Shown here in pieces: positions 9,155 through 58,475 of a stretch of DNA of 64,000 nt. The stretch covers positions 26,420 through 90,419 of the IMG/VR virus record IMGVR_UViG_3300042291_000957; one strand, written 5' to 3'. Position numbers and translations under genes: made by a program. Source of the DNA: a virus. How positions within the stretch are numbered: position 1 is the stretch's first letter; each line of letters starts with the position of its first letter. Below the pieces are notes generated by a model that searched no databases, was not told where the DNA came from, and saw only the letters and a program-made list of their open reading frames with translations.

Positions 9155-9160
9155 TCGTCC

Positions 9161-22044: not shown

Positions 22045-22718
22045 AGATTGCGTTGTAGACAGTAATCTGTATAAATGCGTTCACGGTGCCATTCATCTCC
22101 CATAGGAGTTGTAGCAAAGTCGTGAAAACTTGGAGTACCTAAGGTGTAGTGTAACAGCTTTGCATCTTGATTTGCGCCGAACTCATCAGGCAACCAGTTC
22201 CATACTTTAGGTAATTCTCCAACCAATTCATCAGCAAGCCAAGTAAATCTATGAAGTTGAGCGCCTGTGGCAGTTTCAATAAATTCAGGTGTTACTACTT
22301 TATTTGCGGAATGACCGCAATTCCAAAGAATAACACTTGACCAATTCTTTCGAGGATAATTTTCGTTTTTAGCACCGAGGTACTTTTCTGTCATTTTAGT
22401 TTTGTAGTCGTGTTTAACTACCATTACTGCTTTGCTGTCGTCTCGAAGAGCCCATAACTTTTCAATATCATCTCTAACTAGCATGTCGCCATCCATAAAG
22501 ATTGCCCAGCCTTTATATTCCATTAGGTGTGGAACTAAGAAGCGACTGTATATAAACTGATTACTACCGTCGGTATGTGTTTCTTGATAATCTTGCATAT
22601 TTGTTAACGCAAGTGGTGTAAACGAAATTGGTTTACTAGAATGTCTAATAATACTGTTGGCACATACATGGTATGCTATTGCTTCTCTATGGTCATAACC
22701 GATAAAAATATTAATCAT
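22041..22718 (-). CDS. Glycosyltransferase, GT8-like
   Basis: MINIFIGYDHREAIAYHVCA is a frequent opening for this family; GWAIFMDGDMLVRDDIEKLW contains the DxD metal motif; NWSSVILWNCGHSANKVV and ANQDAKLLHYTLGTPSFHD are typical later blocks with a candidate catalytic HY pair. The length of 225 residues is normal. Found widely in T4-like marine phages by my recollection; acceptor unknown. Confidence 0.77.
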   Translation of the reverse strand: MINIFIGYDHREAIAYHVCANSIIRHSSKPISFTPLALTNMQDYQETHTDGSNQFIYSRFLVPHLMEYKGWAIFMDGDMLVRDDIEKLWALRDDSKAVMVVKHDYKTKMTEKYLGAKNENYPRKNWSSVILWNCGHSANKVVTPEFIETATGAQLHRFTWLADELVGELPKVWNWLPDEFGANQDAKLLHYTLGTPSFHDFATTPMGDEWHRERIYTDYCLQRNL

Positions 22719-23479
22719 TTTCTTTCTATGTCCTCTTCTACACAGTTTTCACCATATTGAATTTCAATAACTCGCAAGGGTTGATCTGTCTCATTACATA
22801 ACTTATGCCATTGAGTTTTATTGATATGTATGTGTTGATGCTGTGTATATTCACCTAATAAATCCATGTCTGAGCTTTGATCTATTGTATAGACTGTAGC
22901 TATGCCTTCAGCTACAAACCAATGTTCTGCACGGTCTTGGTGACGTTGCATACTGAGACAAGTTTTAGGATTGACTGTTAGTTCTTTGAGTTTAACATGA
23001 TTGCCAACTTCATGTAGTACTCGATAGTACCCCCAGGCTCTACCAGTTTTAGGTGCTTTCCATTCTTGAAGAATCCACGAACTAGAATTCTTTTTATCTT
23101 CACCACCCACACCAAACACAAATTCTAGGTTGTTGTCTTGAATATCCATTTCTGGAATATTCTTATCTGTTCTATCGCCACCGTTGGCAAAGATGATTGT
23201 ATCTTCTGGAAAATCTTTTCTAACTTCTAGTATAGCACCTTTTGATGAGCCGTCGGCATCGTCAAAATCATAAACAATACCGTCTACGCATTTAATATTG
23301 TCTACGATATATGATCGTTCAGAAAAAGGCATAAAGGCTGCACCTTTTTTACGAACAAGCCATTCATCGGAATTGAGCCCTACAAGGAGTATGTCTCCTA
23401 GTTCTTTGGCTGCTTGGAAGTAGGCAATGTGCCCGGAATGTAGAGGATCAAATCCACCTGTGACTAATATTATTTTCAT
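22715..23479 (-). CDS. Cytidylyltransferase-like / mannose-6-P isomerase-type cupin fusion
   Basis: Residues 1-135 form a nucleotidyltransferase of the RfaE/TagD kind: ILVTGGFDPLHSGHIAYFQA has the HxGH motif. Residues 150-254 form a type II phosphomannose isomerase-like cupin: WGYYRVLHEVGNHVKLKELT, then LSMQRHQDRAEHWFVAEG with its QxHxxRxEHWxV core, and DQPLRVIEIQYGENCVEEDI. This pairs sugar activation with sugar-phosphate binding on one chain. The first gene after a palindromic late promoter (23480-23495); it heads sugar island 2. Confidence 0.8.
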   Translation of the reverse strand: MKIILVTGGFDPLHSGHIAYFQAAKELGDILLVGLNSDEWLVRKKGAAFMPFSERSYIVDNIKCVDGIVYDFDDADGSSKGAILEVRKDFPEDTIIFANGGDRTDKNIPEMDIQDNNLEFVFGVGGEDKKNSSSWILQEWKAPKTGRAWGYYRVLHEVGNHVKLKELTVNPKTCLSMQRHQDRAEHWFVAEGIATVYTIDQSSDMDLLGEYTQHQHIHINKTQWHKLCNETDQPLRVIEIQYGENCVEEDIERK

Positions 23480-44222: not shown

Positions 44223-44472
44223 ATTTATCAAAGACTGTGAAAGATATGAATCAGTAATAGCCACAATGCCAGCGGGCGATGTAAAAAATGAAACTGTTCA
44301 ATTGTTACAAAAATTAACCTATAGCATTAAAAAACTTGATAACATGCATCTAGAAATGATATACTCTAGACAGTTGCCAACTATGGGCAACGAAATGAAA
44401 GACGAAATATCAGATTTGCGAAAAAAATTAGAAACTAGAATTAGAGACTGGTCGCAAGCACAGAAAAATTAA
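44194..44472 (+). CDS. Small helical protein, 92 aa
   Basis: MSSILQKSTRFIKDCERYES is followed by KLTYSIKKLDNMHLEMIYSR and KDEISDLRKKLETRIRDWSQ, a coiled-coil-like pattern. It overlaps the Nudix-like gene by 29 bases and converges with the fibre gene through a shared TTAA stop. Assembly or chaperone role is possible. Confidence 0.6.
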   Translation: MSSILQKSTRFIKDCERYESVIATMPAGDVKNETVQLLQKLTYSIKKLDNMHLEMIYSRQLPTMGNEMKDEISDLRKKLETRIRDWSQAQKN

Positions 44473-46553
44473 ATACTGCTAAAGTTTTTAATGAAAATAG
44501 TACCAATCATAGCAGCATGAACACTGCACTGATATCTGTAGCTACCACTAATTGAATCTGGAATCTTCCAATACAGTGTACCAGATGTTTGCCCTTGAGC
44601 AGATGCACCTGTAGTCACAACGCCTCCTGTGGTTACGTGTACTAACCCAGTGTTGTAATTTGCACCTGCGCCGTCCTGTATCAAAAAAGGATGACCTGCC
44701 ACATTAAGATTGAAAGCTATAGTGGTGCCATTTATGGCATATACTGTAGGATCGTCAGTAGTGCCATATTGATCAAATCTGTATGCAGTAGCACCGTTAT
44801 TAGTTACATTAAGTCTTGTTATGGCCGGTAGATAGAACTGATCCACCGTTAGCCCAGCAGCATCCGTCAAGTCAGTAAATGCTGAGGCACCTGCTGAGGC
44901 CGTATTGGTGATTGTAACGGTATCTGTGCTGGCATCTGTGGTGATTGAGATACCGGTGCCTGCGGCTATAGTAAGAGTGTCAGTGGCTGAATCAGCAACA
45001 ACTGAACTTTGCCCTGCTACCGCTATAGTGGCAAAACTATCTGATGCAGTTCCGCCGCCGGCGGCAGCAATGGTAATAGTGTCTGTACCAGCATTGGTAG
45101 TTATAGTTATATTTGAACCTGCTACCAAAGTCAGGGTATCTGTGGCTGAATCCGCTACCACTGAAGTTTGTCCGGCCACTGCTATTGTAGCAAAACTGTC
45201 TGATGATGAACCGCCTGAAACTGTAGCCCAAGAATTATCCCCACGGAGATAGGTACTAGCACTGGCTGTTCCTGTGGCTCCTATACGAGCTATAGGTACA
45301 GTACCTGAAGTTAACTGAGTGGCATTGAGTGCTGTTAAATTAACACCCGAACTTGCAGGTAATGTAGCTGGAAATCTTGCATCAGGTACAGTACCTGAAG
45401 TTAACTGAGTGGCATTGAGTGCTGTTAAATTAACACCCGAACTTGCAGGTAATGTAGCTGGAAATCTTGCATCAGGTACAGTACCTGAAGTTAATTCAGT
45501 GGCATTTAAAGCGGTTATCAAACTGCCGTCACCGCTGAAACTTGTAGCAGTTAATAACCCTACATCTGATATACTGGCACTACTAACCTGTATGATTGTG
45601 CCTGTTGTGCCATCGTAGCGCACAATCCTGTTGTCCACATAGCCGCCGCCTGCACTCAATACATCGCCTGATCCAGATCCTGACGCTCCTGGAGGACCAA
45701 TCTCTCCCTGAGGTCCAGGAACCCCCACAGCAGAAGTAGCCTGTCTTGAGCCGTCTGCAAATACAATTTCATTGCCTACCACAACATCTGATTCAAAATT
45801 CACTGCTGGGGTTACTGTAATAGCTGTGCTATCTGTGCTGTCTATGGTGTTAGCCACAAAGGTGATGTTGCCTGTGCTGGCAGTACCTGTGATAGTAATG
45901 GTATCTGTACTAGCGTTGGTAGTTAGTGTAATACCAGTACCAGCAACTAGTGTCAGTGTGTCTGCGGTTGTATCTGCTATCACTGAACTTTGTCCTGCGA
46001 TAGCAATAGTTGCAAATGTATTGGGCAGACTGCTTTCTGCAGCCACAGGTACCCAAGCGCCGGCATGTGCATAATACAATTTGCCTGTATCATGCACATG
46101 AGCTACCATACCGTGATAATCTATAGGGGACACTTCATCTGTAAGATCTGCTAGGGTGTCCCAATGGAATCTGATGCGATTTTTTTGTCCTGAGATATCT
46201 ATCACACCCGATAACATCAACGTATTAGTGGAATCATCTAACCAAGTCAATGCAGCAAGATCGTTGACTTGGGAACCATTTGACGGATAATATGCTATTT
46301 TTCCAGAGACGCCTGACTGCACACCGCCACTGAATCCTGCAGAATTTGCTTTGGCTAAAAAATCTGTATTAGATATATTGGTTAAATCTGCTTTTGCAAG
46401 ATTTACACCGCTAGCTGTGGCTCCATCATATAGTCTCAGGGTATTAGCTGTTCGATCATAAAAAATTTCACCTCGATTTCCGGATCTTCTGTTAAGAAAA
46501 TCTGTTTCTCTAGGTATAATTCTTATTGCGTCAAGTACGGGTATCTTTGCCAT
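44469..46553 (-). CDS. Tail fibre with collagen-like segment and cupredoxin-like tip, 694 aa
   Basis: MAKIPVLDAIRIIPRETDFL starts a fibre shaft. Three similar repeats (about 178-222, 453-495, 505-549; SFATIAVAGQSSVVADSATD) form beta-helical shaft units; 279-291 GPQGEIGPPGASG is collagen-like; 350-420 contains an exact 30-residue tandem duplication (LTSGTVPDARFPATLPASSG). The last 120 residues have a cupredoxin ligand set: H621 in VAGHPF and C676-x2-H679-x2-M682 in YQCSVHAAMIG, as in amicyanin spacing. Probably a host-contact fibre. Confidence 0.82.
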   Translation of the reverse strand: MAKIPVLDAIRIIPRETDFLNRRSGNRGEIFYDRTANTLRLYDGATASGVNLAKADLTNISNTDFLAKANSAGFSGGVQSGVSGKIAYYPSNGSQVNDLAALTWLDDSTNTLMLSGVIDISGQKNRIRFHWDTLADLTDEVSPIDYHGMVAHVHDTGKLYYAHAGAWVPVAAESSLPNTFATIAIAGQSSVIADTTADTLTLVAGTGITLTTNASTDTITITGTASTGNITFVANTIDSTDSTAITVTPAVNFESDVVVGNEIVFADGSRQATSAVGVPGPQGEIGPPGASGSGSGDVLSAGGGYVDNRIVRYDGTTGTIIQVSSASISDVGLLTATSFSGDGSLITALNATELTSGTVPDARFPATLPASSGVNLTALNATQLTSGTVPDARFPATLPASSGVNLTALNATQLTSGTVPIARIGATGTASASTYLRGDNSWATVSGGSSSDSFATIAVAGQTSVVADSATDTLTLVAGSNITITTNAGTDTITIAAAGGGTASDSFATIAVAGQSSVVADSATDTLTIAAGTGISITTDASTDTVTITNTASAGASAFTDLTDAAGLTVDQFYLPAITRLNVTNNGATAYRFDQYGTTDDPTVYAINGTTIAFNLNVAGHPFLIQDGAGANYNTGLVHVTTGGVVTTGASAQGQTSGTLYWKIPDSISGSYRYQCSVHAAMIGTIFIKNFSSI
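45295..45474. repeat. Exact 90-bp tandem duplication in fibre gene
   Basis: Two identical 90-base units at 45295-45384 and 45385-45474, with a partly diverged third copy from 45475. Lies in frame, adding 30 residues per unit. Confidence 0.9.
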
Positions 46554-46558
46554 ATTAT

Positions 46559-46566
46559 TATTTATT
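46559..46566 (-). promoter_or_regulatory. Late promoter motif for fibre gene (AATAAATA)
   Basis: Minus-strand AATAAATA, six bases before the fibre ATG at 46553. Confidence 0.4.
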
Positions 46567-46570
46567 CAAA

Positions 46571-47440
46571 TTAGTAATAACGAGTTTTAGCCAAATAATC
46601 TATGTACTTTGCGATGCCTTCATACACGTTGGTGAAACTTTTGACATCTACCCCAGATTTTGTTAACAATTTCGTATCAGCTAATGTATTTATTTGATAC
46701 TGTTTTTTAAGATCATCGGGCATATCTACAAATCTTTTTTTGCCTTTGTTTGTATTAGATATTACAAGATCTGCTATGGTTTCAAAATCCGTGCTAGATC
46801 CGCTGCCGAGATCATAGATTCCAGGTTGATAATTTTCAAACATAAAATAATATATGGTTTTTGCTATATCTTCTACCCATACAAAATCTCTAAAATAATT
46901 CTTGCTGTTTTCGAATATCGTTATTTCCTCAGTTTCTTTGATTTGATCAAACCAATGTAAAATTGTAGAAGCCATTCTGCCTTTGTGATACTCATTAGGC
47001 CCATATACATTGAACAATCGAAGGACAACTCCTTCTACTTCATTTTCACTGAGCAGTTTGCTAAATGCGTATTGATTCATTGGGCCAGAGCCGTTACCAT
47101 ATACTGATGCGCTAGAAGTAAAAATAAAAGGTATTTTGCGTTGTTTACAAAATGCATTCCATTTCCTTGTAGATTTAACATTCGTTGCATAGATCGAACT
47201 CCAATTTTTTTCTAGAGTATTAGCATTTGCACCGATATGTATGACTCCAGTGATGTTTTCATCTATTGAATCGATGTCATCTATAGAAACAAGTCTTTTA
47301 TACTGTTTACCTATGAGATTTTTATACTGATTTTCATAAGGCAGATCGTCAACTATAATAATATCAGTGACTCGTTGCAAATTCAAGTAACCTAATACCA
47401 CACTACCAATAAATCCTCCGGCTCCGGTTAGTATAATCAT
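46571..47440 (-). CDS. hldD: ADP-L-glycero-D-manno-heptose 6-epimerase (HldD-like)
   Basis: IILTGAGGFIGSVVLGYLNL is the NAD motif; FTSSASVYGNGSGPMNQYAF includes the Y-x3-K neighbourhood (QYAFSKLLSE); FNVYGPNEYHKGRMASTILH is the strongest HldD block, together with FRDFVWVEDIAKTIYYFM. HldD flips the C6'' position of ADP-D-beta-D-heptose, the last step of ADP-heptose synthesis. It overlaps the kinase gene by four bases. Length 289 is near the usual 310. Confidence 0.87.
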   Translation of the reverse strand: MIILTGAGGFIGSVVLGYLNLQRVTDIIIVDDLPYENQYKNLIGKQYKRLVSIDDIDSIDENITGVIHIGANANTLEKNWSSIYATNVKSTRKWNAFCKQRKIPFIFTSSASVYGNGSGPMNQYAFSKLLSENEVEGVVLRLFNVYGPNEYHKGRMASTILHWFDQIKETEEITIFENSKNYFRDFVWVEDIAKTIYYFMFENYQPGIYDLGSGSSTDFETIADLVISNTNKGKKRFVDMPDDLKKQYQINTLADTKLLTKSGVDVKSFTNVYEGIAKYIDYLAKTRYY

Positions 47441-48204
47441 TGTATTTCTTCCAGTCTTGGTGCATACACCCCTATGTGTTGTACTGTTACTGCCGATGCC
47501 TTGTTTGCAAATTTTACTGCATCAGGAATGCGGCCTGTTTTTAAAAACTCGTATACTAATGCTGCTAAAAATGTATCACCTGCACCGCATACATCAGTTA
47601 CATCGCCTACAATTTCAGCAGGGTATATACAATCATTCCAATAAGCGCCACCTCCACCGTGCGTAACAATCAAATGCTCTGCGTTGGGTAAACTTGTTGC
47701 ACGACTTTTTTCCAGTGCATTAATCTTGACATAGCAACCTGATAGTCTTGCTAGGTCTGTTTTCTTTGTGTCAACAAAGATAGGCACGTCAACTTCTTTA
47801 ACTAGCTCTTCTATTAATTCGTAGGTCACTGTGCCTTTGTTGTAGTCACTGATTACAATGGCATCATACCCAGGAGGTATTGATGTGTCAAAAGTGATAG
47901 GATCGCTGGCAACATCTTGATCCATACGCAATAATTGTTGTTTGGTACGTGCATCGATTAATCTGTTTTTTTCGCTAGATTTGCCGTGTAGGAAGTTGAC
48001 TGTGCATCCCAATGCTTCTAGATTCTTACACACATTGCCAGCCATTCCATCTTTGTGAATAGTATACTGTGGTTCAAACACAGGAACTGGTGCTTCGGGA
48101 CTGATACGATTTACATAACCATAGGTGTAAATGTCGTGACAGTCGTCACCTATTAGCAATATCCTGAATTGTTTTAGTTGTTGAATAGTCGCTGACTCTG
48201 TCAT
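47437..48204 (-). CDS. hldE: Heptose kinase, N-terminal HldE-like domain
   Basis: PfkB-family sugar kinase. GDDCHDIYTYGYVNRISPEA followed by PVPVFEP is highly typical of RfaE/HldE domain I, and DVCGAGDTFLAALVYE is the PfkB ATP/anion-hole signature with its catalytic Asp. At 255 residues it is about 50 shorter than the bacterial domain. Bacteria carry domains I and II on one chain; here they are separate genes in reversed order. Overlaps the nucleotidyltransferase gene by 59 bases in a different frame. Confidence 0.83.
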   Translation of the reverse strand: MTESATIQQLKQFRILLIGDDCHDIYTYGYVNRISPEAPVPVFEPQYTIHKDGMAGNVCKNLEALGCTVNFLHGKSSEKNRLIDARTKQQLLRMDQDVASDPITFDTSIPPGYDAIVISDYNKGTVTYELIEELVKEVDVPIFVDTKKTDLARLSGCYVKINALEKSRATSLPNAEHLIVTHGGGGAYWNDCIYPAEIVGDVTDVCGAGDTFLAALVYEFLKTGRIPDAVKFANKASAVTVQHIGVYAPRLEEIQ

Positions 48205-48544
48205 AAAAAAATACCTTTGGTACGTGTGCTTCGCCTACTATACGCTGTCCGCGATAATCACTGCCTTTGACCATTACACTTGGTTTATACAGTTTGATTA
48301 ATGCTATCAGTTCTTCTTCGCTGTCAAAAAATTCTACAATATCAACAGCTTTTAAATTTTGTAACATCACTTTGCGATCAATCTGGTCGTTGATCGGCCG
48401 GCTTTGGCCTTTTAATTCTCGAACTCTTCTGTCTGTATCAATGCATACAACAAGATAATCTCCTAGACTACGAGCTGTGTTCAACATGGCAACATGCCCG
48501 GGATGCAAAATATCAAAAGTACCGTTAACTATTATTGTAGACAT
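48146..48544 (-). CDS. hldE: Heptose-1-phosphate nucleotidyltransferase, C-terminal HldE-like domain
   Basis: STIIVNGTFDILHPGHVAML has the HxGH motif and YDRVSDYSTTKTIQDIANR the ST..I end motif of HldE domain II (adenylyl transfer to heptose-1-phosphate). The centre RPINDQIDRKVMLQNLKAVD also fits. Standalone at 132 residues. First gene of the heptose trio (nucleotidyltransferase-kinase-epimerase); GmhA and GmhB are not seen and would come from the host. Confidence 0.85.
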   Translation of the reverse strand: MSTIIVNGTFDILHPGHVAMLNTARSLGDYLVVCIDTDRRVRELKGQSRPINDQIDRKVMLQNLKAVDIVEFFDSEEELIALIKLYKPSVMVKGSDYRGQRIVGEAHVPKVFFYDRVSDYSTTKTIQDIANR

Positions 48545-48545
48545 A

Positions 48546-49115
48546 CTAGTGATCCAGTGAATACCACCCGGTTATAATATATTTGTAACCCTTATATATG
48601 GGATTCCCCCTGTGAGGGTGGGTAAAATAGGCAGGCCAAATAACCAACTTGCCAGTTTCTGGTTTAATCTTAAGACCTTGATACAGAAATTCTGTTTCGC
48701 CACCCTCTTCAATATCATTGAGATACAAGGTATAAGCTAGGATTCTATTGGCTGATGATTGATCTGCATTTTCACAATGCCACGCATGGTAGCCTTGGCG
48801 CGGGCCGGTTCTCTGTACGCTCATGCCTTTGGGTGTGTGTTGAAAACAAAATCCAAGACTCTGATATTTTTCAAAATACTGTTCTATATAATACTTGTTT
48901 AGAGTTTTATAAAAGAAAGAACACAGGTCAGGATCTACGCTGAAATTTTGTTGACTGTGAAATGCCCAATCAAAAAATATTCGATCGTCCTGATTTTTCA
49001 TCATGCTGTTTTGTGTGAGATGTTGACCCATTTTGACCATATCTTCAAATCTTTGTATGATAGTTTTACAGTAGTCTTTGGGAAATGCGTCTGGATACAC
49101 TTCAATAAAATTCAT
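48546..49115 (-). CDS. 2OG-Fe(II) oxygenase-like protein
   Basis: P4H-like small enzyme: GYHAWHCENADQSSANRILA supplies an HxE-type iron pair, TLYLNDIEEGGETEFLYQGL the sheet, and WPAYFTHPHRGNPIYKGYKY the distal His with a Lys/Arg-type 2OG site. 189 residues. First of six consecutive or near-consecutive oxygenase-like genes. Substrate unknown. Confidence 0.8.
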   Translation of the reverse strand: MNFIEVYPDAFPKDYCKTIIQRFEDMVKMGQHLTQNSMMKNQDDRIFFDWAFHSQQNFSVDPDLCSFFYKTLNKYYIEQYFEKYQSLGFCFQHTPKGMSVQRTGPRQGYHAWHCENADQSSANRILAYTLYLNDIEEGGETEFLYQGLKIKPETGKLVIWPAYFTHPHRGNPIYKGYKYIITGWYSLDH

Positions 49116-49474
49116 CGTTGACTATCTCCGGGAAATATTCTAAAATTATCTTCTACTGAATCGGGGGTACTTACTTCGACTATGATTGAATTGTCTTCCA
49201 ACGCTTCAAGTTGATGCGGTAACCCTGGAGGATTATGCCAATTATCGCCTGTGTTTAAGATTTTTTCCTGCATCGTGGCAGTCTTTGTGTCTATGTATCT
49301 TAACAAGAAGCTACCCTGATTGACGTTCCAGCTTTCATCTTTGACAAGATGGTAATGCATACTGAACTTGTCGCCAGCCTTGGCAAACACCAGATATTTT
49401 CCACAGTATTGGTCAGTGGACGAAAATATTATTTCATGTCCCCAACCTTTTTCTATTTTACCGAATAATTTCAT
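49112..49474 (-). CDS. Cupin protein (sugar-phosphate isomerase-like)
   Basis: KFSMHYHLVKDESWNVNQGS holds HxH then E (metal motif 1) and WHNPPGLPHQLEALEDNSII the second motif with the last His. VFGKIEKGWGHEIIF-type opening (here MKLFGKIEKGWGHEIIFSST) is frequent in phage cupins of the mannose-6-phosphate isomerase type. 120 residues. Overlaps neighbours by four bases on both sides. Confidence 0.75.
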   Translation of the reverse strand: MKLFGKIEKGWGHEIIFSSTDQYCGKYLVFAKAGDKFSMHYHLVKDESWNVNQGSFLLRYIDTKTATMQEKILNTGDNWHNPPGLPHQLEALEDNSIIVEVSTPDSVEDNFRIFPGDSQR

Positions 49475-49986
49475 TTTTGAAAGTAATTTAAATTAATAAT
49501 AATTCTTCTTTTTGCATCTGTTGCACTTATCATTTTATGAGAAATAGCAGTATCAAAAATTAATATCCTGTTTTCAACAGAATCAATCCCAATTATTTCT
49601 TTTTCAACCTCTATCATCGTTTTAGCATTACAAGTTGTCATATATAATATGGCTGTTTTAGAATCTCCATCAGGGTAATCAACATGCCAAGAAGATTCGT
49701 ATCGATCTTCTTTACTTATAGACATATTTGTTCTAGCTTGGAGTAATGAAAAAACTTTTAATTTATATAATAATGATTCTAGTAAATTAAAGTAAGGACT
49801 ACAAACATGGTTGTTTATAAAGAAATTATGTGTAAAATAACACATACCGTGCTCATCATCTTTTGATGTCATATTGTCTCTATAAAACCAATTCATATCT
49901 AATGACGTTAGTGTATTTTTTATTGTATCAAAATATTCTTTATCTAAAAAATTATCTATTACTTCGTACTCTGATTTTTTAGTCAT
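49471..49986 (-). CDS. 2OG-Fe(II) oxygenase-like protein
   Basis: ESSWHVDYPDGDSKTAILYM has the HxD iron motif and LIFDTAISHKMISATDAKRR the distal His and R for 2-oxoglutarate. The N-terminal part YEVIDNFLDKEYFDTIKNTL is a frequent opening of the family in phages. 171 residues. Confidence 0.8.
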   Translation of the reverse strand: MTKKSEYEVIDNFLDKEYFDTIKNTLTSLDMNWFYRDNMTSKDDEHGMCYFTHNFFINNHVCSPYFNLLESLLYKLKVFSLLQARTNMSISKEDRYESSWHVDYPDGDSKTAILYMTTCNAKTMIEVEKEIIGIDSVENRILIFDTAISHKMISATDAKRRIIINLNYFQK

Positions 49987-50004
49987 AATAAAAATTCTCC
50001 TGCA

Positions 50005-50565
50005 TTAGCCGTAGATGTCGGCTGCATCATGATCTTTTACCGACACGTCCATGTTCCACGAAATGATTGTTTTAGTTTCTTCTGAGGTATTAATCGGAGC
50101 TCGGTGAATTACCCAGCTAGGAAATGTAATGATGTCACCTTCATGTACATCAAATATGTGTATATCTTTGGTCACTGGATCTATCCATTCTGTTTGGGTG
50201 CCGCCTTCAGGCAAATGCACATAATATACGTTGGTAAAGTTATTGCTATGGGTATGCCAGGCATGTTTGCCTCCAGTGGCATACTGTTGAAACCAAATTT
50301 CAGTAATACCAAATGTTTGATATCCCATGGTATTGCACCATTCGTTGAGATGAATAGCAAGAGGATAATTTATAATTTTAAGCCACTCTCTGTCGCCATC
50401 ATATCGAGATGTACTCCAATCGCATCTAATGATATCGCTGTTAAATGCCAGCATGTGTTCTGCTCGATCTTGTCTTGAAATGGCATCTATTACTTGTTGT
50501 TTTAGTTGAATATGTTCCTTAAATGGTTTAATACTTATAGGAAACGGTATAACAGTAGGTGACAT
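50005..50565 (-). CDS. 2OG-Fe(II) oxygenase-like protein
   Basis: GKHAWHTHSNNFTNVYYVHL has a His-rich iron segment (H-x-H rather than HxD), with GDIITFPSWVIHRAPINTSE and the distal His; ETKTIISWNMDVSV ends the barrel. One key residue deviates, so catalytic status is uncertain. 186 residues. Confidence 0.7.
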   Translation of the reverse strand: MSPTVIPFPISIKPFKEHIQLKQQVIDAISRQDRAEHMLAFNSDIIRCDWSTSRYDGDREWLKIINYPLAIHLNEWCNTMGYQTFGITEIWFQQYATGGKHAWHTHSNNFTNVYYVHLPEGGTQTEWIDPVTKDIHIFDVHEGDIITFPSWVIHRAPINTSEETKTIISWNMDVSVKDHDAADIYG

Positions 50566-51176
50566 TAGTACAAGCTACCTTGTCTTTTTATTACTATGTT
50601 TGATGCAAACACAACTCTTGATTCATTTGTTTGATTATAATATACATAATGTTCAAGACAGGATGGGAATATTATCAATATTCCTTCTTCCATTGGTGGC
50701 TTATATATGTTTTGATAGTGATCTTGCGGATCTAATTCTAAATATTTTAAATGATTTGATAAATTAGGAGTCCTGAAAACTAGCTGTCCCGAATCTGCAT
50801 TAGGTTGTTTTAGTATGACCACACACGAAAATGCCGGTACATTTGTTGTTATGTGATTGTGTAACTGTTGATGATCATATTGATTATGCACATTATACCA
50901 TGTATCTATTTCAACTTTATAGGAAAATTGAAACATAAAAGAATCTATGTAAGACTGGATATAGGGCGCAGGTAGTAATATATCATTCCATTTTTTAAAA
51001 AAGTCAGCATCGCTCCAGCGTTGAGATGCATTTTTAGAAATTCTACTTTCTTCGCCTTTGTATTCATCTTCTTTGCCATTTAATATCAATGGAAGATAAT
51101 GATCCTGTAGAATTTTTAGATCTACAGTATTCAATCGAGAAATGCTTACCGGATATCCTTCAAGATGTATTTTCAT
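50565..51176 (-). CDS. 2OG-Fe(II) oxygenase-like protein
   Basis: DHQQLHNHITTNVPAFSCVV (H-x-H segment), ILIIFPSCLEHYVYYNQTNE (distal His) and SRVVFASNIVI (the 2OG Arg) follow the 2OG barrel order. The frame starts MKIHLEGYPVSISRLNTVDL. The iron-motif acid is not obvious. 203 residues. Confidence 0.68.
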   Translation of the reverse strand: MKIHLEGYPVSISRLNTVDLKILQDHYLPLILNGKEDEYKGEESRISKNASQRWSDADFFKKWNDILLPAPYIQSYIDSFMFQFSYKVEIDTWYNVHNQYDHQQLHNHITTNVPAFSCVVILKQPNADSGQLVFRTPNLSNHLKYLELDPQDHYQNIYKPPMEEGILIIFPSCLEHYVYYNQTNESRVVFASNIVIKRQGSLY

Positions 51177-51904
51177 TAGATAGTATCTTTAGTATGAATG
51201 CCAGTTTTAAACCCAGTTGTAAGATCCACAGTGGTACCAGTGTTAAAGAAGTCAATTACTTTATTTGCTAAAATTTTATGATTAACTTCTGAAAAGTGGT
51301 TATAACGCAGATCGCCGCCAACTCTATTATGATATGTGTTACATGTTTCGATACTGTCAAACTCTAAGTTTGAGGTTTCAAACATATTTCCTTGTACCCC
51401 TGCAACGTTGTGAAACCCTGGCAGGATTAAAAATTGAATACCTTGTTGTGCATATAGCATAGTTCTAAGAGTTATTGCATCATAAATTGCATCATATTGT
51501 ATAAAAAGACGGTGATCGGAATGCAGATACTTTTTATACATTTCTAATGCCTTGGCTTGTTCTTTTGTAACATGAACTCCTGGCACAAATTTTGCATTTA
51601 GGAAATTTGCCATGCCTGGTTTATCTTCAAAAATCCATTCTCTGTAATAAGAAGTAAGCTGTACTATAACACAGTCCCCACTTTTAAACGACGATTCACG
51701 CTCTCTTAGGGTATGGAAAATGTATTCATTGGAACACCCGAGCTGAGAGTCATTTACATGATTATCATCCCCGATTAAACTTTCACTAACAATCCTAGTC
51801 CAATTCTTTTCTAACGGCATGAACGTTACTAGACCTGTAGGCCCAATAACTTCATTCTTGTGTGCATCGGGTACACTAAAACTATCGCCGAAAACATATA
51901 ACAT
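51176..51904 (-). CDS. SGNH/GDSL-like hydrolase
   Basis: MLYVFGDSFSVPDAHKNEVI is the GDSL block I with the catalytic Ser, NDSQLGCSNEYIFHTL is like the block II Gly, and GGDLRYNHFSEVNHKILANK gives the D-x-x-H-type end. SGNH enzymes remove or add acyl groups on sugars. It would fit modification or trimming of the heptose glycan. 242 residues; no signal peptide, so probably cytoplasmic. Confidence 0.72.
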   Translation of the reverse strand: MLYVFGDSFSVPDAHKNEVIGPTGLVTFMPLEKNWTRIVSESLIGDDNHVNDSQLGCSNEYIFHTLRERESSFKSGDCVIVQLTSYYREWIFEDKPGMANFLNAKFVPGVHVTKEQAKALEMYKKYLHSDHRLFIQYDAIYDAITLRTMLYAQQGIQFLILPGFHNVAGVQGNMFETSNLEFDSIETCNTYHNRVGGDLRYNHFSEVNHKILANKVIDFFNTGTTVDLTTGFKTGIHTKDTI

Positions 51905-52533
51905 TAATTAGTTGCTCCTGTTTCTAACAAAATATTGAAAGACAAACTAATACGATCTTCATTGGTTGTATTTTCATTAACACTGTGATCTAAATAGCCG
52001 GGCCACATACTTAATCTGCCTTGCTCTGGGGCAAATGCGTTTTCATGAGCATATGAACTACCAATTGGATTGCATTTTAATGCTTTAAGAGCATTTCTAA
52101 AAACTAGATCACCGTCTTGCCCATTTGTTTTAAACCAATACACTCCACTGACGTGGCTGGTACCGTGATCGTGAACATGAGCATACTGCCCCGGTTTGGT
52201 TAGTGTAAGCCATGAAGTTTCGATGGCTGCTTTGTACAGCGGTTTAACATTCATCATTCTCATATAATTAAAACAATGGTGCATTATACACGAAGTGATC
52301 ACTCTCATTTTTTCGTCTTTTAAAATAGACTGGTTAAAATCACCTTGATTAGATAGGTAATGAGTGTGAGAATTCCAATATGGATTTTGTCCCCAACGAT
52401 CTTCTAGATGCAGTTTATCAACCACAGTCTGCATCTCGGCCTGTATTTCAGTATATTCTTTGCTTTCTGTTTTGTATGTGTATAGGGGGGAAGGAAACAA
52501 GGAGTAAATTCGGCCTTCGGTTTGATTGTTCAT
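51904..52533 (-). CDS. 2OG-Fe(II) oxygenase-like protein
   Basis: GQYAHVHDHGTSHVSGVYWF gives the HxD motif with GDLVFRNALKALKCNP following; LSMWPGYLDHSVNENTTNED supplies the distal His and RISLSFNI the Arg. Start MNNQTEGRIYSLFPSPLYTY is set by GGAGGAAAAC before its ATG. The opening SLFPSPLYTY is characteristic of this subgroup. Confidence 0.82.
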   Translation of the reverse strand: MNNQTEGRIYSLFPSPLYTYKTESKEYTEIQAEMQTVVDKLHLEDRWGQNPYWNSHTHYLSNQGDFNQSILKDEKMRVITSCIMHHCFNYMRMMNVKPLYKAAIETSWLTLTKPGQYAHVHDHGTSHVSGVYWFKTNGQDGDLVFRNALKALKCNPIGSSYAHENAFAPEQGRLSMWPGYLDHSVNENTTNEDRISLSFNILLETGATN

Positions 52534-52547
52534 GTTTTCCTCCATAT

Positions 52548-53138
52548 TTAAATAAACATCATCTGATTGATTCTGTAAGCATCTTCAACAAACCAATCAG
52601 GTTGCATCACTGCGGTGTGAACATCAGTTTGCCTGTATAATACCAATCTATTAAAAGCCATTTCTGCATATCCTAGTTCTTGTCCGGTTTCAGAATAAAA
52701 AGCTGTGCCGCCGTGAGATTCGTCATTGTAGTTTAAATATACCGATGCTGCAAATCTACCTGGATCTGCACTATCTCTATGGGGAGTTGGCTGGTCTTGT
52801 CCTTGCATTACATTTACCATGAATGTTATAAAATCAAATGTTTTACGTATGTCTTTATCAATCTTGCGAGGACCGTCATTAAAATTTTCACTGATTAGTT
52901 TAACAAACGTATCGGCTAAACTTGTTAGATTAATTCCAAGACTAATTGACAGTCCGGGGTATGTATTTCTAATCATGCTCTTCGATGCAGGAATAGAAAG
53001 AGCCAATTCTCTAACTTTTTCAGGATTAAGATAAAAGTTATCAACAATGACACATTTGGTATCACCTAACTGATGTACATGTACTTCAAAATTAGGATTA
53101 ACTGCAAATATATCTTGTTCATTTATTTTTTTAATCAT
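52548..53138 (-). CDS. 2OG-like oxygenase (DUF6445-type)
   Basis: FYLNPEKVRELALSIPASKS and TYPGLSISLG resemble DUF6445-like proteins; QDQPTPHRDSADPGRFAASV is the HxD-type motif, GTAFYSETGQELGY the sheet, and DVHTAVMQPDWFVED the distal His. Frequently seen in glycan islands of marine phages. 196 residues. Confidence 0.7.
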   Translation of the reverse strand: MIKKINEQDIFAVNPNFEVHVHQLGDTKCVIVDNFYLNPEKVRELALSIPASKSMIRNTYPGLSISLGINLTSLADTFVKLISENFNDGPRKIDKDIRKTFDFITFMVNVMQGQDQPTPHRDSADPGRFAASVYLNYNDESHGGTAFYSETGQELGYAEMAFNRLVLYRQTDVHTAVMQPDWFVEDAYRINQMMFI

Positions 53139-54958
53139 GCTCTGTCATTATGTTCAATCTCTACCATCATTTTAACAGCTGGAAAATAAATGTAATTAAT
53201 TCCTGAGTTGTAAAGAGTACGCATGGCATCGTCGATGGTTTCAACCAATGGCTCGCCGCCTAGGTTAAAGCTGGTATTAAACAATGCAGGAACACCTGTT
53301 TGATTTTTAAATTCTTTAATCAGATTATACCAATGAAAGTTTTGTTCTTCAGTCACTGTTTGAATTCTACAGGTACCATCAACGTGTATAACTGCTGGAA
53401 TCTTTTCTTTCACGCCCGGCTGACAATTTACAGCATACATCATAGACGGAGAATCTTCCATGCCACGCAGATCAAACCAATCGTGTACATCATCTTGTAA
53501 TACTGATGCAGCAAATGGTCTAAAATATTCTCGTTTTTTAATCAAATTAACAAAATCTTTACCGTCGGCAAATGTTGGATCAAACATCAGTGATCTGTTG
53601 CCTAGTGCTCTAGGACCGTTTTCGCAGCGTTCTTGGAATAGTGCTACGATGTTTTTAGATCTAATAGTCTTAATAACATCTTTGTAATCAACATTTATTG
53701 TTACGCTGCCACTGTATTTGGCCGCAGTTTCTATAACTGCATCTTCAGTGATATGTTGTACCGGACCTAAAAATAAATTTTCATCTTTTGATCTTACTTT
53801 TGTATCTTGAGATGTTTTATAGTAATGATAAAATGCTGCACCCATAGCTGTACCTGCATCGTTCGAAACAGGTTCAACATATATCTTTACACCTTCCGGT
53901 AAGTGCTGTAGATAGAAATAGTTGGCAACACAATTTAAACCATACCCGCCGCTGATAACGATATTTTTATTACCTGTACGTTTAATTGATTTTAGAATCA
54001 AGTCAAGTACTAGTTGTTGCGATTCAGTTTGTACATTGTAGGCCATGTTTCTTCTAGAAGCCAATTGTGTTAGATCTTCTGCATCAGCTTCACGCATTTG
54101 TTGCTCGTACCGCTGCATTTGTCGTTGATCGTTGGGGTCAGTCACTGATCTATGAATTACTTTTGGATCGTACACCCTGTCATCTAGTTCAGCATAGCCT
54201 TCTTCATTGACCAGTGCGCCATTGGGATATGTATTAGTGAATAGATCTTTATTCCCACCAAAATTACCATAAATCTTAGGTGCTTTGTTCGGTTCTCCAT
54301 ACGGAAACAGACCCATAGTTTTACCCGCTTCTATCGAGTCGAATCCACAAAATCTAGTTACTGCTTCATATGCTTTAACAATACCTGTTTTATCATTAAC
54401 TATAACTTCTGTACCGTTCCCATCACTGTTGTAATGTTCAGTCCTCCAAGGTCCGTTGCCTCCAAAATGCTTGTACACTTCCTCAAAGTTTGCAGGGTAT
54501 GAACAATCATATATACTTTCAACTTCAAACATGGTTTGACCGTCGGGGCGTTCAATAAATGTACCTGCCCCATCTACAATAATAGCACTTGCTTTATCAA
54601 ACCCAGATCTATAAAATGCCAACGCGGCGTGACTTCTATGGTGTTGATCGTGATATTTAATTACTTGGGTATTAACATCGTCGATTAATCTCAACTTCCT
54701 AGCAAGTGCAGAATACACATCTTGCCTTACAAAATCGTTTATTGGTTCGTCATGACCTTGTGTGTGAGATATTACCAAATAATCAATCTTGTCAGTATAG
54801 TCAAGAATTTTAATCATACTCGCAAGCGGGCCGCCGTCATATTTGTAGCGAGATAGTCTTTCTTCTTCAATAGAAAATACAATTTGTCCATCTTTTAAAA
54901 GACAAACTCCTGCATTATGCCCTCGAGCAATACCTGCAATGTATCCTGTTTTTTTCAT
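53135..54958 (-). CDS. O-carbamoyltransferase (NodU/CmcH/TobZ-like)
   Basis: MKKTGYIAGIARGHNAGVCL is the N-terminal HxxxxC-type signature, with SIEEERLSRYKYDGGPLASM, HRSHAALAFYRSGFDKASAI and IIVDGAGTF; the C-terminal half has GGYGLNCVANYFYLQHLPEG and ENGPRALGNRSLMFDPTFAD then TGVPALFNTSFNLGGEPLV. The family transfers carbamoyl from carbamoyl phosphate through carbamoyl-AMP to sugar hydroxyls. Start at 54958 is set by AAGGA. The 607-residue length is usual. Its sugar substrate may be heptose. Confidence 0.9.
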   Translation of the reverse strand: MKKTGYIAGIARGHNAGVCLLKDGQIVFSIEEERLSRYKYDGGPLASMIKILDYTDKIDYLVISHTQGHDEPINDFVRQDVYSALARKLRLIDDVNTQVIKYHDQHHRSHAALAFYRSGFDKASAIIVDGAGTFIERPDGQTMFEVESIYDCSYPANFEEVYKHFGGNGPWRTEHYNSDGNGTEVIVNDKTGIVKAYEAVTRFCGFDSIEAGKTMGLFPYGEPNKAPKIYGNFGGNKDLFTNTYPNGALVNEEGYAELDDRVYDPKVIHRSVTDPNDQRQMQRYEQQMREADAEDLTQLASRRNMAYNVQTESQQLVLDLILKSIKRTGNKNIVISGGYGLNCVANYFYLQHLPEGVKIYVEPVSNDAGTAMGAAFYHYYKTSQDTKVRSKDENLFLGPVQHITEDAVIETAAKYSGSVTINVDYKDVIKTIRSKNIVALFQERCENGPRALGNRSLMFDPTFADGKDFVNLIKKREYFRPFAASVLQDDVHDWFDLRGMEDSPSMMYAVNCQPGVKEKIPAVIHVDGTCRIQTVTEEQNFHWYNLIKEFKNQTGVPALFNTSFNLGGEPLVETIDDAMRTLYNSGINYIYFPAVKMMVEIEHNDRA

Positions 54959-54981
54959 TATTTTTCCTTGTGACATTTATT

Positions 54982-55968
54982 TTAAGCACAGCCGGGTGCA
55001 GCACACCCAGCAGCTTGTTTGGGTTCAGCATATGCCTTGGCAGTTTTACTCAATGTAGTTTTAATCCCGTTGGTAATTGTCTTAATAGTTTCGTCATTGA
55101 GCACCATTAGATTTTCATTGTGTCTATCAATCCTAATGTCTATCGCAACTCTTATTGGAGAATACTTTCTTTCGTCTTTGCCGTTATCGATTATAGTAAG
55201 TGTACTGCTACTAGGATACGAAATGTTTTCAGGGAATGTACCGCCTATAACCACTGTGCCCGGTTTCTTTAAGGCATGTGCAATATGCTGTCCCACTGAG
55301 TCGCAGCCCAAGAAATAATCAGCAGCATTGATAATTGCAGTCCATTGTAAAAGACTAACGCTTTCCGGTACCATTACCCCTAATGCTTTGTTTCCAGGAA
55401 TTTTTAACTCGCTCATCATTATAACAGCGTAATTTTTATTCAGTTCTTCAAGTATTTTTATAATATCATCAACTTCGAATGATCTACCACTTTCGTCAAT
55501 GATGGTGTTGCCCTGTAATCCAGCTGTTTTTCCAAATGGTTGGAAGATTACTACTTGTTGCTTTTTAAAATGATTTCTAGCTTCATTGACTAGTTCGTTT
55601 GCTTGTGCAATATCCTTTTTGCCAATAAAAATATCATATTCTTTGGTTTCTGGGATAAGTTCAGGCGGAACATCGTAGTTGATCAACATGTCAAACGCCT
55701 GCACAAGATTGCATCTTTGAGTAAAGTATGCGTTTAGTTTATACGGTTCGGGAGTTATGATTTCTCTATCTTTTAATTTTTCAAAAAGATCTGGGTTTGT
55801 AGCATGATGCACATTATTTGCTAATGTTTTGCTGGTTAAATATAGATCAATCCAACCTTCAACAACAATGACTGCTGTTGGATCAGTGTTTTTAACATAG
55901 TACTCTAGTGCGGGAATGGCGCATAGTACTCGACCTGCGCCGCCATTTATAAAAAATGCTTTTTTCAT
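54982..55968 (-). CDS. GT9-like heptosyltransferase
   Basis: AFFINGGAGRVLCAIPALEY replaces the GDxxxxxP opening of ADP-heptose:LPS heptosyltransferases, and FLGCDSVGQHIAHALKKPGT is the donor-site block (D-S-G..H in WaaC/WaaF). HFKKQQVVIFQPFG is the linker. It ends in Cys-rich AAGCAAPGCA. GT9 enzymes use ADP-heptose, which the genes downstream would make. No signal for secretion; probably cytoplasmic. 328 residues. Confidence 0.72.
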   Translation of the reverse strand: MKKAFFINGGAGRVLCAIPALEYYVKNTDPTAVIVVEGWIDLYLTSKTLANNVHHATNPDLFEKLKDREIITPEPYKLNAYFTQRCNLVQAFDMLINYDVPPELIPETKEYDIFIGKKDIAQANELVNEARNHFKKQQVVIFQPFGKTAGLQGNTIIDESGRSFEVDDIIKILEELNKNYAVIMMSELKIPGNKALGVMVPESVSLLQWTAIINAADYFLGCDSVGQHIAHALKKPGTVVIGGTFPENISYPSSSTLTIIDNGKDERKYSPIRVAIDIRIDRHNENLMVLNDETIKTITNGIKTTLSKTAKAYAEPKQAAGCAAPGCA

Positions 55969-55998
55969 TGATATCGTAACCTTTGCTATCTAGTACGA

Positions 55999-56006
55999 TA
56001 TTTATT
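55999..56006 (-). promoter_or_regulatory. Late promoter motif for heptose/oxygenase operon (AATAAATA)
   Basis: Minus-strand AATAAATA, 31 bases before the GT9 start, in a 114-base gap that contains nothing else but the hairpin at 56047. Drives the long run 55968 to 46571. Confidence 0.45.
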
Positions 56007-56082: not shown

Positions 56083-56799
56083 TTAGTAAACGCCTGGGGG
56101 TAGATTTTGTAAAGCATCGGCATCGGAGGCATCTCTGTCTGCGATTCTAATAACCTTAACATGCTCATTTTCAAATTCCATGTTGGGTCCGTCTTCAGGA
56201 CTACGCGGAAATCTTACAAGATATTTAGGAACATCTGCCCAATCTGCAGGAAGGTCTCTAAGTTTTTGTCTATAATCCAGCCATTGTTGTTTTAGAGCTT
56301 CTGGCATATCTGGAGCAATTTTGCCATCACTTGCAGCTAGTCTTGTATCTCTCTCACGTCTAATAAACGCATCATCTCTAATTCTTTTGTTCTCAAAGAA
56401 TTTAAGCGGTGCTGTGTAATCGTCAGTTACAGATTGTTTATCATAAACTATTCTAATATCTGAAGGATCTACAACTGTGGCGTTTGGTTGATCGACTGGA
56501 CCAACCGAAACTTCGTAGATCTTTGGGTCTTCTAATCCGCCGTAGATCAATCCAATTTTGCAGCAGTTTATGTCGGTGTCTGCTTTTAATATTTCTCTTT
56601 TGAGATCTAATGGAAGCGGACGATCAGGTTCGTCTTCTGGTGCAAACGCCTGCATTAAATAGCCAGTTTCTTTATCAAGCCACATGACTATTTCTTCTGG
56701 GCCTTCGTATAACTGTGTACTGGTTTTACCCAACGTATTTTCCAACGAAAATAAGTGATCTGGTATACTGTATGTTAGCATTTTGGTTATCTTTGCCAT
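56083..56799 (-). CDS. Tail-fibre-assembly-like protein, 238 aa
   Basis: MAKITKMLTYSIPDHLFSLE begins a protein with ALKQQWLDYRQKLRDLPADW near residue 170, a helix typical of tail fibre assembly (XkdW/gp38-like) proteins, followed by YLVRFPRSPEDGPNMEF. It sits directly downstream of the two Cys-rich fibre genes, which supports a chaperone or adaptor role. Not certain. Confidence 0.6.
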   Translation of the reverse strand: MAKITKMLTYSIPDHLFSLENTLGKTSTQLYEGPEEIVMWLDKETGYLMQAFAPEDEPDRPLPLDLKREILKADTDINCCKIGLIYGGLEDPKIYEVSVGPVDQPNATVVDPSDIRIVYDKQSVTDDYTAPLKFFENKRIRDDAFIRRERDTRLAASDGKIAPDMPEALKQQWLDYRQKLRDLPADWADVPKYLVRFPRSPEDGPNMEFENEHVKVIRIADRDASDADALQNLPPGVY

Positions 56800-56809
56800 T
56801 TATTTCTCC

Positions 56810-57637
56810 TTAACTGTACGTTATTCTAACAAGGCCGCCAGCGCCAAAACTGCCCCAGCAGGCACTCGATGAGTCGATTGCGTGGCCTGAGCCGCCACCG
56901 CCTGGGAAAGCTGCGTGTGCTGAACAGCAGGCCAAATTGCCCACGCAGCGATGTTTGCCGCCAATTCCATGAGGTGCAGCCCACGGGCCGCTTGGGCCTC
57001 CTGCTACTGCGAACGCATCAGCACAACAGTTGTATTGGTGATTGTATGATCCAGTTGTGCCTCTAAAACACATGTCGGACCCGTATACTGGCGTATTACA
57101 GGCGTGATTGACCCAACCGGCATTGTAGTTGCCTAGATCGCATTGAGTATTTCCAATGTGGCAGTTATAGCAGTTTGAGATCATGTCCCAAGAAGTTGAC
57201 CCGCCCATGCCGCCGATGGCACAGAAATTGCTGAGACCAGTGCCATTGACAAAACTGGTGCATCCATGTCGACAATTTTGATTACATGAACAGCAGCAGC
57301 TACATTCCGATGAGCCAGCGGCACATACAGTATATGTTGCGCCATCTGCAAATCCATTTACTGATTTTTGCAGGGTTCTTACGCCGTAATTGCCGCCTTG
57401 GCCACCAACTCCGTGATCATGGTCACCACCTGATGAGCCACCTGGGCCGCCACCTGACAGTATTTCAAACTTGATCGACGTGGTTCCATTAGGTACTACA
57501 AAAGCACAACAGCGACCACCATTTAGTGGTGTCCAGTTGTTGGTATTCCAAACATAGATTTCATACTGTTCTGCAATTTTACATTGATGTTGAGCGTTAG
57601 CGTAAATTATTCCTGCACTTGATAAACACGTTGGCAT
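56810..57637 (-). CDS. Gly/Cys-rich tail-tip protein, paralogue A
   Basis: A 275-residue protein with 24 Cys, unusually many for a phage cytoplasmic protein. FVVPNGTTSIKFEILSGGGP is a beta module, ECSCCCSCNQNCRHGCTSFV and CAIGGMGGSTSWDMISNCYN are Cys/Gly-rich, and GSFGAGGLVRITYS is the C-terminal Gly-rich end. It resembles marine-phage glycine-rich adhesin tips. Possible disulfide mesh or metal clusters. Its leader AGGAGAAATAAATG is identical to that of copy B. Confidence 0.7.
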   Translation of the reverse strand: MPTCLSSAGIIYANAQHQCKIAEQYEIYVWNTNNWTPLNGGRCCAFVVPNGTTSIKFEILSGGGPGGSSGGDHDHGVGGQGGNYGVRTLQKSVNGFADGATYTVCAAGSSECSCCCSCNQNCRHGCTSFVNGTGLSNFCAIGGMGGSTSWDMISNCYNCHIGNTQCDLGNYNAGWVNHACNTPVYGSDMCFRGTTGSYNHQYNCCADAFAVAGGPSGPWAAPHGIGGKHRCVGNLACCSAHAAFPGGGGSGHAIDSSSACWGSFGAGGLVRITYS

Positions 57638-57647
57638 TTATTTCTCC

Positions 57648-58475
57648 TTAACTATATGTTATTCTAACAAGACCACCGGCGCCAAAGCTGCCCCAGCAGG
57701 CACTCGATGAGTCGGTTGCGTGGCCTGCGCCGCCACCACCTGGCCAGGTTGCGTGTGCTGAACAACAGGCCAAATTGCCCACGCAGCGATGTTTGCCGCC
57801 AACTCCATGATTTGTGCTAATTGGTCCGGAAGGTGAGCCTGCAACAGAAAAGTTATCTGCACAACAGTCATATGAAGAATTGTATGATCCAGCTGTGCCT
57901 CTAAAACACATATCAGACCCGTATACTGGTGTATCACAAGCATTATTGCCCCAACCGGCATTGTAGTTACCCACGTTACACTGAACATTACCAATGTGGC
58001 AGTTATAGCAGCTGGAGGTCATATCCCACATAGTAAAGCCACCCATGCCGCCGATGGCACAGAAATTGCTGAGACCAGTGCCATTGACAAAGCTGGTGCA
58101 TCCATGTCGACAATTTTGATTACATGAACAGCAGCAGCTACAATCCGATGAGCCAGCAGCGCATACAGTATATACAGAGCCATCTGTAAATCCATTCACT
58201 GATTTTTGCAATGTTCTTACGCCGTAATTGCCGCCTTGGCCACCGATGCCGTGATCATAGTCACCACCTGACGAGCCACCTGGGCCGCCACCTGACAGTA
58301 TTTCAAACTTGATTGTAGTAGTCCCTGTGGGTACTGTCCACGCACAACACTGGCCACCATTTTGTGGGCTCCAATTGTTGAGATTCCAGATATACTGTTC
58401 TCTTTGTTCTTCGATCCTGCACTTGTGCTGACCGTTGGAAAAAATTATACCGCAATTTGATAATTGTACTGGCAT
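57648..58475 (-). CDS. Gly/Cys-rich tail-tip protein, paralogue B
   Basis: Same length (275) and 24 Cys, with 23 of them at the same positions as in copy A; the cores from GGGPGGSSGGD to the end are mostly identical. N-terminus (MPVQLSNCGIIFSNGQHKCR) and two loops (WDMTSSCYNCH, NSSYDCCADNFSVAGSPSG) vary. The duplication with variable loops fits host-range diversification. Confidence 0.7.
   Translation of the reverse strand: MPVQLSNCGIIFSNGQHKCRIEEQREQYIWNLNNWSPQNGGQCCAWTVPTGTTTIKFEILSGGGPGGSSGGDYDHGIGGQGGNYGVRTLQKSVNGFTDGSVYTVCAAGSSDCSCCCSCNQNCRHGCTSFVNGTGLSNFCAIGGMGGFTMWDMTSSCYNCHIGNVQCNVGNYNAGWGNNACDTPVYGSDMCFRGTAGSYNSSYDCCADNFSVAGSPSGPISTNHGVGGKHRCVGNLACCSAHATWPGGGGAGHATDSSSACWGSFGAGGLVRITYS

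Follow-up and report, generated by a model that had tools for sequence, protein, structure and literature searches.

Does a phage that encodes enzymes for a sugar of bacterial lipopolysaccharide (LPS) use them on the surface of its host or on its own particles? The question is raised by a gene cassette of an aquatic T4-like phage, in the virus record IMGVR_UViG_3300042291_000957, in which a window of 64,000 nucleotides (nt) was analysed, corresponding to bases 26420-90419 of the 90,419-base record. The cassette lies on the minus strand, from 55968 down to 46571 of the window, and a preliminary description had seen in it genes for making, transferring and carbamoylating heptose under a late promoter motif. 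Tentatively, we prefer a role in which a sugar cassette inside the tail-fibre gene cluster modifies tail proteins of the virion late in infection, giving this a little less than an even chance. Virion modification is the better reading because of late expression, linkage to tail genes and the presence of the same genes in phages of heptose-free hosts. A cyanophage-type cassette of this kind is already known, though poorly understood; the present one is a variant of it, here reinterpreted.

Layout and late expression of the cassette

Every gene named in the preliminary description was found in its place, but the list was incomplete, as the cassette also encodes a cupin, an SGNH-like protein and six oxygenase-like proteins. 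In order of transcription, and followed by a structural gene, the cassette genes are:

54982..55968, minus: GT9-fold glycosyltransferase-like protein (GT9-like), 328 amino acids (aa), PHROG 8954, first operon gene; weak sequence match, predicted fold
53135..54976, minus: NodU/CmcH-type O-carbamoyltransferase, 613 aa; PF16861 E 3e-55, PF02543 E 5.5e-25
52548..53138, minus: DUF6445 / 2-oxoglutarate (2OG)-Fe(II) oxygenase-like; PF20043 E 6.5e-21
51904..52545, minus: 2OG-Fe(II) oxygenase-like; PF13759 E 1.9e-18
51176..51904, minus: SGNH/GDSL-like protein with FGDSFS at the N-terminus; assigned by eye only, no Pfam or PHROG match
50565..51176, minus: 2OG-Fe(II) oxygenase-like; PF13759 E 3.4e-12
50005..50565, minus: 2OG-Fe(II) oxygenase/cupin-like; PF13759 E 2.6e-9
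49471..49986, minus: 171-aa protein, PHROG 274 (named DNA endonuclease V), HxD motif
49112..49474, minus: small cupin with full cupin motifs
48546..49115, minus: 2OG-Fe(II) oxygenase-like; PF13640 E 1.3e-14
48146..48544, minus: HldE C-terminal-like adenylyltransferase, HPGH motif; TIGR02199 E 2.5e-36
47437..48204, minus: HldE N-terminal-like heptose-7-phosphate kinase, shortened; TIGR02198 E 5e-37
46571..47440, minus: HldD-like ADP-heptose 6-epimerase; TIGR02197 E 3.8e-67

Neighbouring genes overlap or are separated by 1-18 nt, with nearly all of them abutting or sharing 1-4 nt, and the block thus reads as one operon. Its late motifs and flanking genes are:

55998..56006, minus: T4-type late promoter motif AATAAATA, 37 nt before the GT9-like start; ATAAATA at 56005
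46558..46566, minus: second late-type motif, before the downstream structural gene
44469..46553, minus: downstream structural protein, baseplate wedge/tail-fibre connector-like; PHROG 677 E 1.8e-47
56083..56799, minus: upstream tail-fibre assembly protein (Phage_tail_APC)
56810..58475, minus: two tandem Gly/Cys-rich tail-region proteins (PHROG 4205, Gly_rich_2), candidate acceptors

The late motif reported earlier was confirmed, and its position is conserved: of 50 loci, 45 have ATAAATA 32-43 nt ahead of the GT9-like gene, where the background is 1.2%. The carbamoyltransferase gene is never preceded by it (0/29), which together argues for one late transcript. ATAAATA is rarer in the window than expected (12 copies vs 27), and seven of the 12 copies sit 12-37 nt ahead of a correctly oriented gene start.

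A search for the same operon in relatives, proposed with the preliminary description, found the set conserved. The carbamoyltransferase gene follows the GT9-like gene in 97 of 100 fetched loci. Upstream of the latter lie a gene for a tail-fibre assembly protein (70/81) and, at most 4.5 kb away, genes for Gly/Cys-rich proteins (54/58). PHROGs label the cassette flanks as tail-fibre assembly and baseplate wedge/tail-fibre connector. In five cultured cyanophages (P-SSM2, S-SSM7, S-CAM3, Sf-FS3 and S-CAM1), the same arrangement lies between the tail-fibre genes and the neck genes (gp13-15), and distant relatives from Vibrio phages likewise sit amid tail genes, where the stretch seen bears no annotation of ADP-heptose genes.

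The closest known counterpart is the "LPS" cluster of cyanomyophages (P-SSM2, P-SSM5, S-SSM7, S-CAM1, S-CAM3 and Sf-FS3; T4-GC 302-308), which has the same genes in the same place. The shared order runs from tail-fibre genes through Gly/Cys-rich, GT9-like, carbamoyltransferase, HldE parts, cupin and HldD to the neck genes. The cassette studied here differs in that it lacks the HAD phosphatase, has extra oxygenases and the SGNH-like protein between its halves, and carries HldD on the same strand. Its proteins are about 31-55% identical to those of the cyanomyophages, and the terminase of this phage is nearest to those of jumbo phages of Pseudomonas, Sinorhizobium and Agrobacterium (~47-53% identity), which are not cyanophages. 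No near-identical DNA was found among named phages, and no structured RNA was found in the region.

Enzymes of the cassette

The ADP-heptose chemistry proposed for this locus was upheld: for both the HldD-like protein and the kinase, matches to other families fall far behind those to solved heptose enzymes. The HldD-like profile has E. coli HldD (1eq2) as its best solved match (E 1.6e-77), with the nearest non-HldD epimerase at ~1e-31, and the kinase profile is closest to D-beta-D-heptose 7-phosphate kinase (E 5.5e-38; ribokinase, 5e-12). Aligned with the E. coli K-12 proteins, HldD-like keeps YxxxK and the HKG lysine, the kinase keeps N..E and GAGD, and the adenylyltransferase keeps HxGH. All three miss the NCBIfam equivalog cut-offs (HldD-like, 226.7 vs 274.6 bits; kinase, 127.6 vs 345; adenylyltransferase, 124.7 vs 181.5), and for this reason the names HldE-like and HldD-like are used; viral divergence is a likely cause for HldD-like. 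It is well supported by these motifs and matches that the split HldE kinase and adenylyltransferase together with HldD are able to make ADP-heptose.

Compared with the E. coli pathway (GmhA, HldE, GmhB, HldD), the HldE kinase, adenylyltransferase and HldD motifs are held in common. Here, HldE is split and reversed, with a kinase shortened to 255 aa, GmhA and a match to the small HAD phosphatase are missing, and a cupin is added. The adenylyltransferase and kinase genes share 59 nt out of frame (48146-48204). Split, reversed and out-of-frame overlapping HldE parts also occur in several cyanophages, while in other relatives kinase and adenylyltransferase are fused in canonical HldE order. Similar overlaps of 41-80 nt were observed in P-SSM2 and S-CAM1. 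Six cassette genes are under purifying selection (ratio of nonsynonymous to synonymous substitution rates, dN/dS, of 0.04-0.21 where dS was computable), which indicates a selected function. Sullivan et al. (2010) had described that T4-GC 304, 305, 307 and 308 co-occur and had left open whether these are functional LPS genes or stuffer DNA (PMC3037559); the low dN/dS speaks against the latter.

The full route from heptose phosphate is only partly present in this record, as the HldE parts and HldD are in place but GmhA and the cyanophage-type small HAD phosphatase gave no match. GmhA was found in none of 11 phage records searched, this one included, several of which are fragments. A TIGR01689-type small HAD is encoded by six of six cyanophages and none of eight other records, and it would fit phages of heptose-free hosts supplying their own GmhB function. 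The cyanophage "phosphoheptose isomerase" (T4-GC 306) was rejected as a GmhA; it is this small HAD phosphatase with HAD motifs intact, and its best solved match is a "Capsule biosynthesis protein". The misannotation is seen at L108:16030-16374, L109:22702-23037, L110:15924-16244, L111:17815-18141 and L112:15910-16233, and in two copies in L116.

With an HldD profile of this group as the probe, 54 viral loci that encode HldD, the kinase and the adenylyltransferase were collected. The small cupin is encoded no further than 2.5 kb from the ADP-heptose block in 51 of these and in all 36 with complete flanks. From this association, the cupin might be guessed to be a candidate isomerase replacing GmhA. 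Its profile covers the D-lyxose isomerase 2y0o (E 3e-6), but oxalate decarboxylases score higher, and we do not claim it as a proven isomerase. Adenylyltransferase-cupin fusions exist in L046, L052, L054 and L057 and in the window at 22715-23479 (minus), where an adenylyltransferase is joined to a mannose-6-phosphate-isomerase-type cupin (PF01050 E 2e-21) with its own late-type motif upstream.

By sequence, GT9-like matches PF01075 over a short C-terminal stretch at 19.7 bits, under the gathering cut-off of 22. A structure model built from 25 viral relatives (predicted local distance difference test score, pLDDT, 84.6) placed GT9 enzymes on top of a fold search (TMq 0.45-0.60), and the best solved matches were the GT9 enzyme 3tov, the protein heptosyltransferase TibC, WaaC and WaaF. 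TM-scores were somewhat higher for TibC (0.52-0.57) than for WaaC/WaaF (0.44-0.50). The protein has the GT-B, GT9-like fold and a C-terminal D..G.H motif in common with TibC/Aah and WaaC/WaaF; an invariant GGxGR motif marks the N-terminus throughout its family. Among 84,980 genomes scanned, no more than seven relatives turned up, each on a metagenome-assembled contig and several with phage tail genes alongside, so GT9-like is essentially a phage family and a cellular origin was rejected.

The NodU-type carbamoyltransferase stands as described, with both Pfam domains, shared with NodU, CmcH and TobZ, above cut-off. Its best solved relatives are carbamoyltransferases: 7xb6, the novobiocin enzyme, GdmN and TobZ. 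It may be of the same kind as the Pseudomonas LPS-core carbamoyltransferase, and heptose may be the group that it carbamoylates, as a candidate acceptor.

Virion or host surface

In the mechanism that we propose, the two HldE parts and HldD would supply ADP-heptose from heptose-7-phosphate, which would come from the host or, at a guess, from the cupin. The 7-phosphate would be removed by a host phosphatase here and by the small phage HAD phosphatase in cyanophages. The GT9-fold enzyme would then transfer a sugar, probably heptose, and the NodU-type enzyme would carbamoylate a hydroxyl of that sugar or of the acceptor. The acceptor would be a virion protein made together with the cassette from neighbouring genes (Gly/Cys-rich or fibre/connector) rather than host LPS core, and may first be hydroxylated by the 2OG oxygenases of the operon. 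Glycosylated phage virions have been described before, in mycobacteriophages (Freeman et al. 2023, cited by PMC12619734).

The LPS of Synechococcus WH8102 and CC9311 contains neither heptose nor 3-deoxy-D-manno-oct-2-ulosonic acid (Kdo) (PMC4515613), and Sf-FS3, isolated on WH8102, carries the cassette. Rebuilding of host LPS core, the first of two roles put forward in the preliminary description, is therefore not general, because cyanophages have the same cassette while their hosts lack LPS heptose. The second, a change to the phage's own particles, is better suited to the tail-fibre position and late promoter.

Remodelling of the host surface, in which ADP-heptose would end as carbamoylated heptose on host LPS or another envelope glycan and exclude competing phages, is somewhat unlikely in our view. 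The cassette enzymes resemble LPS-core enzymes, and the carbamoylated heptose that occurs in Pseudomonas LPS core fits such a role. Published interpretations for marine T4-like phages likewise point to the host surface (PMC3037559; PMC7029224). Against it stand, besides the heptose-free hosts, the late promoter and tail-fibre position, as exclusion of competitors would be expected early, and the departure of GT9-like from canonical WaaC/WaaF.

Several observations weigh against virion modification by a carbamoylated heptose. We found no virion glycan data, the acceptors are candidates only, and the host of this phage may contain heptose. Marine T4-like phages bear other surface-sugar islands that are read as O-chain synthesis (PMC7029224). 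There, the host recognition cluster of pelagimyophages and cyanomyophages is likewise an island that varies, lies among structural genes and carries tail fibres, rfaE and glycosyltransferases, which Zaragoza-Solas et al. (2020) take to modify the host O-chain; the available part of that paper contains no description of this conserved late cassette. In alignments, the invariant Arg13 of GT9-like takes the position of the Asp that is the catalytic residue of WaaC and WaaF, and significant sequence matches to these and to TibC/Aah are lacking. In TibC, the equivalent Asp-110 is the likely base and four conserved cysteines form an iron finger (PMC4358343); the GT9-like family lacks a conserved set of four such cysteines. 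With Arg13 and without these cysteines, heptose can be proposed as the donor only conditionally.

The two halves of the cassette are also separable. Among 55 comparable loci, defined as GT9-like plus carbamoyltransferase loci extending to the downstream structural landmark, the ADP-heptose block is present in 40 and lacking in 15, and a 186-kb relative with GT9-like and carbamoyltransferase has no strong HldD or cassette HldE match. Conversely, within the stretches fetched for the 54 ADP-heptose-block loci, GT9-like occurs in only 15 and the carbamoyltransferase in 18, and S-SM2 has ADP-heptose genes without GT9-like. Many of the loci are fragmentary and mutually related, and these counts are therefore not independent events. 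Because of these 15 loci without ADP-heptose genes and the Arg at the catalytic position, a single pathway is not established; of the heptose transfer that the preliminary description assigned to GT9-like, the GT9 fold holds and the WaaC/WaaF catalytic Asp is lacking, and heptose is a putative donor as well as a putative target of the carbamoylation.

This pattern would suit two independent modules in a tail-fibre "host recognition" island, one of GT9-like and carbamoyltransferase with a non-heptose donor and one in which the ADP-heptose block serves other phage glycosyltransferases. Such an arrangement is unlikely in our estimate. Each module is found without the other, GT9-like has Arg13 in place of the catalytic Asp, and many further sugar genes lie at 3-23 kb of the window, but the modules are adjacent in the majority of comparable loci and in the five cultured cyanophages, and the nearest folds of GT9-like are users of ADP-heptose.

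Modification of phage DNA by the carbamoyltransferase with the oxygenases, as in 5-carbamoyloxymethylcytosine, is very improbable: a phage enzyme with the same Pfam pair carbamoylates 5-hydroxymethylcytosine (PMC8670742) and oxygenases adjoin the gene here, but such enzymes co-occur with thymidylate-synthase homologues (PMC8670742), none of which was found in this record or in G001, G002 and G013 (the records may be incomplete), and a glycosyltransferase-like gene flanks the carbamoyltransferase, as reported for unmodified contigs (PMC8670742).

Late virion modification thus stays the preferred reading. In its furthest form, marine and freshwater T4-like phages would have a self-sufficient ADP-heptose pathway, with the cupin for GmhA and, in cyanophages, the mini HAD for GmhB, and would decorate their own tail proteins with carbamoylated heptose via the Arg-containing GT9-fold enzyme and the carbamoyltransferase, even in heptose-free hosts; we regard this as improbable. 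Since 2010, these genes have gone under the name of LPS genes or possible stuffer DNA; their conserved late promoter, position among tail genes, purifying selection and presence in phages of heptose-free hosts now lead to a testable claim, namely that cyanophage virions carry heptose. If true, it would explain the recurrent set of carbamoyltransferase, oxygenases and cupin in abundant aquatic phages and would hint that GmhA may have been replaced by a non-orthologous enzyme.

Candidate acceptors and other genes of the window

The tandem proteins at 56810-58475 are each 275 aa long. Cys makes up 9% and Gly 18% of them, which is unusual for the tail region, and about a dozen Cys are invariant among relatives. 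The structure model of the Gly/Cys-rich protein was poor (pLDDT 47), and tblastn with this protein gave no match among named phages, probably as the low-complexity filter masks the query. The downstream structural protein has a collagen-like stretch and 25% Ser+Thr.

The DNA endonuclease V label of PHROG 274, also given in cyanophages, is probably wrong for 49471-49986, which has an HxD motif and lies amid oxygenases; the 171-aa protein is probably another 2OG oxygenase.

Elsewhere in the window, a reductase (RmlD-like), a Polysacc_synt_2 dehydratase and a UDP-N-acetylglucosamine (UDP-GlcNAc) 2-epimerase are encoded close together at 6599-10228 (minus), which looks like a UDP-N-acetylfucosamine (UDP-FucNAc)-type pathway (FnlA/B/C) in a second sugar island. 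At 18479-22044 (minus), four similar-looking proteins of 256-364 aa stand in a row and appear, by eye, to be products of paralogous glycosyltransferase-like genes.

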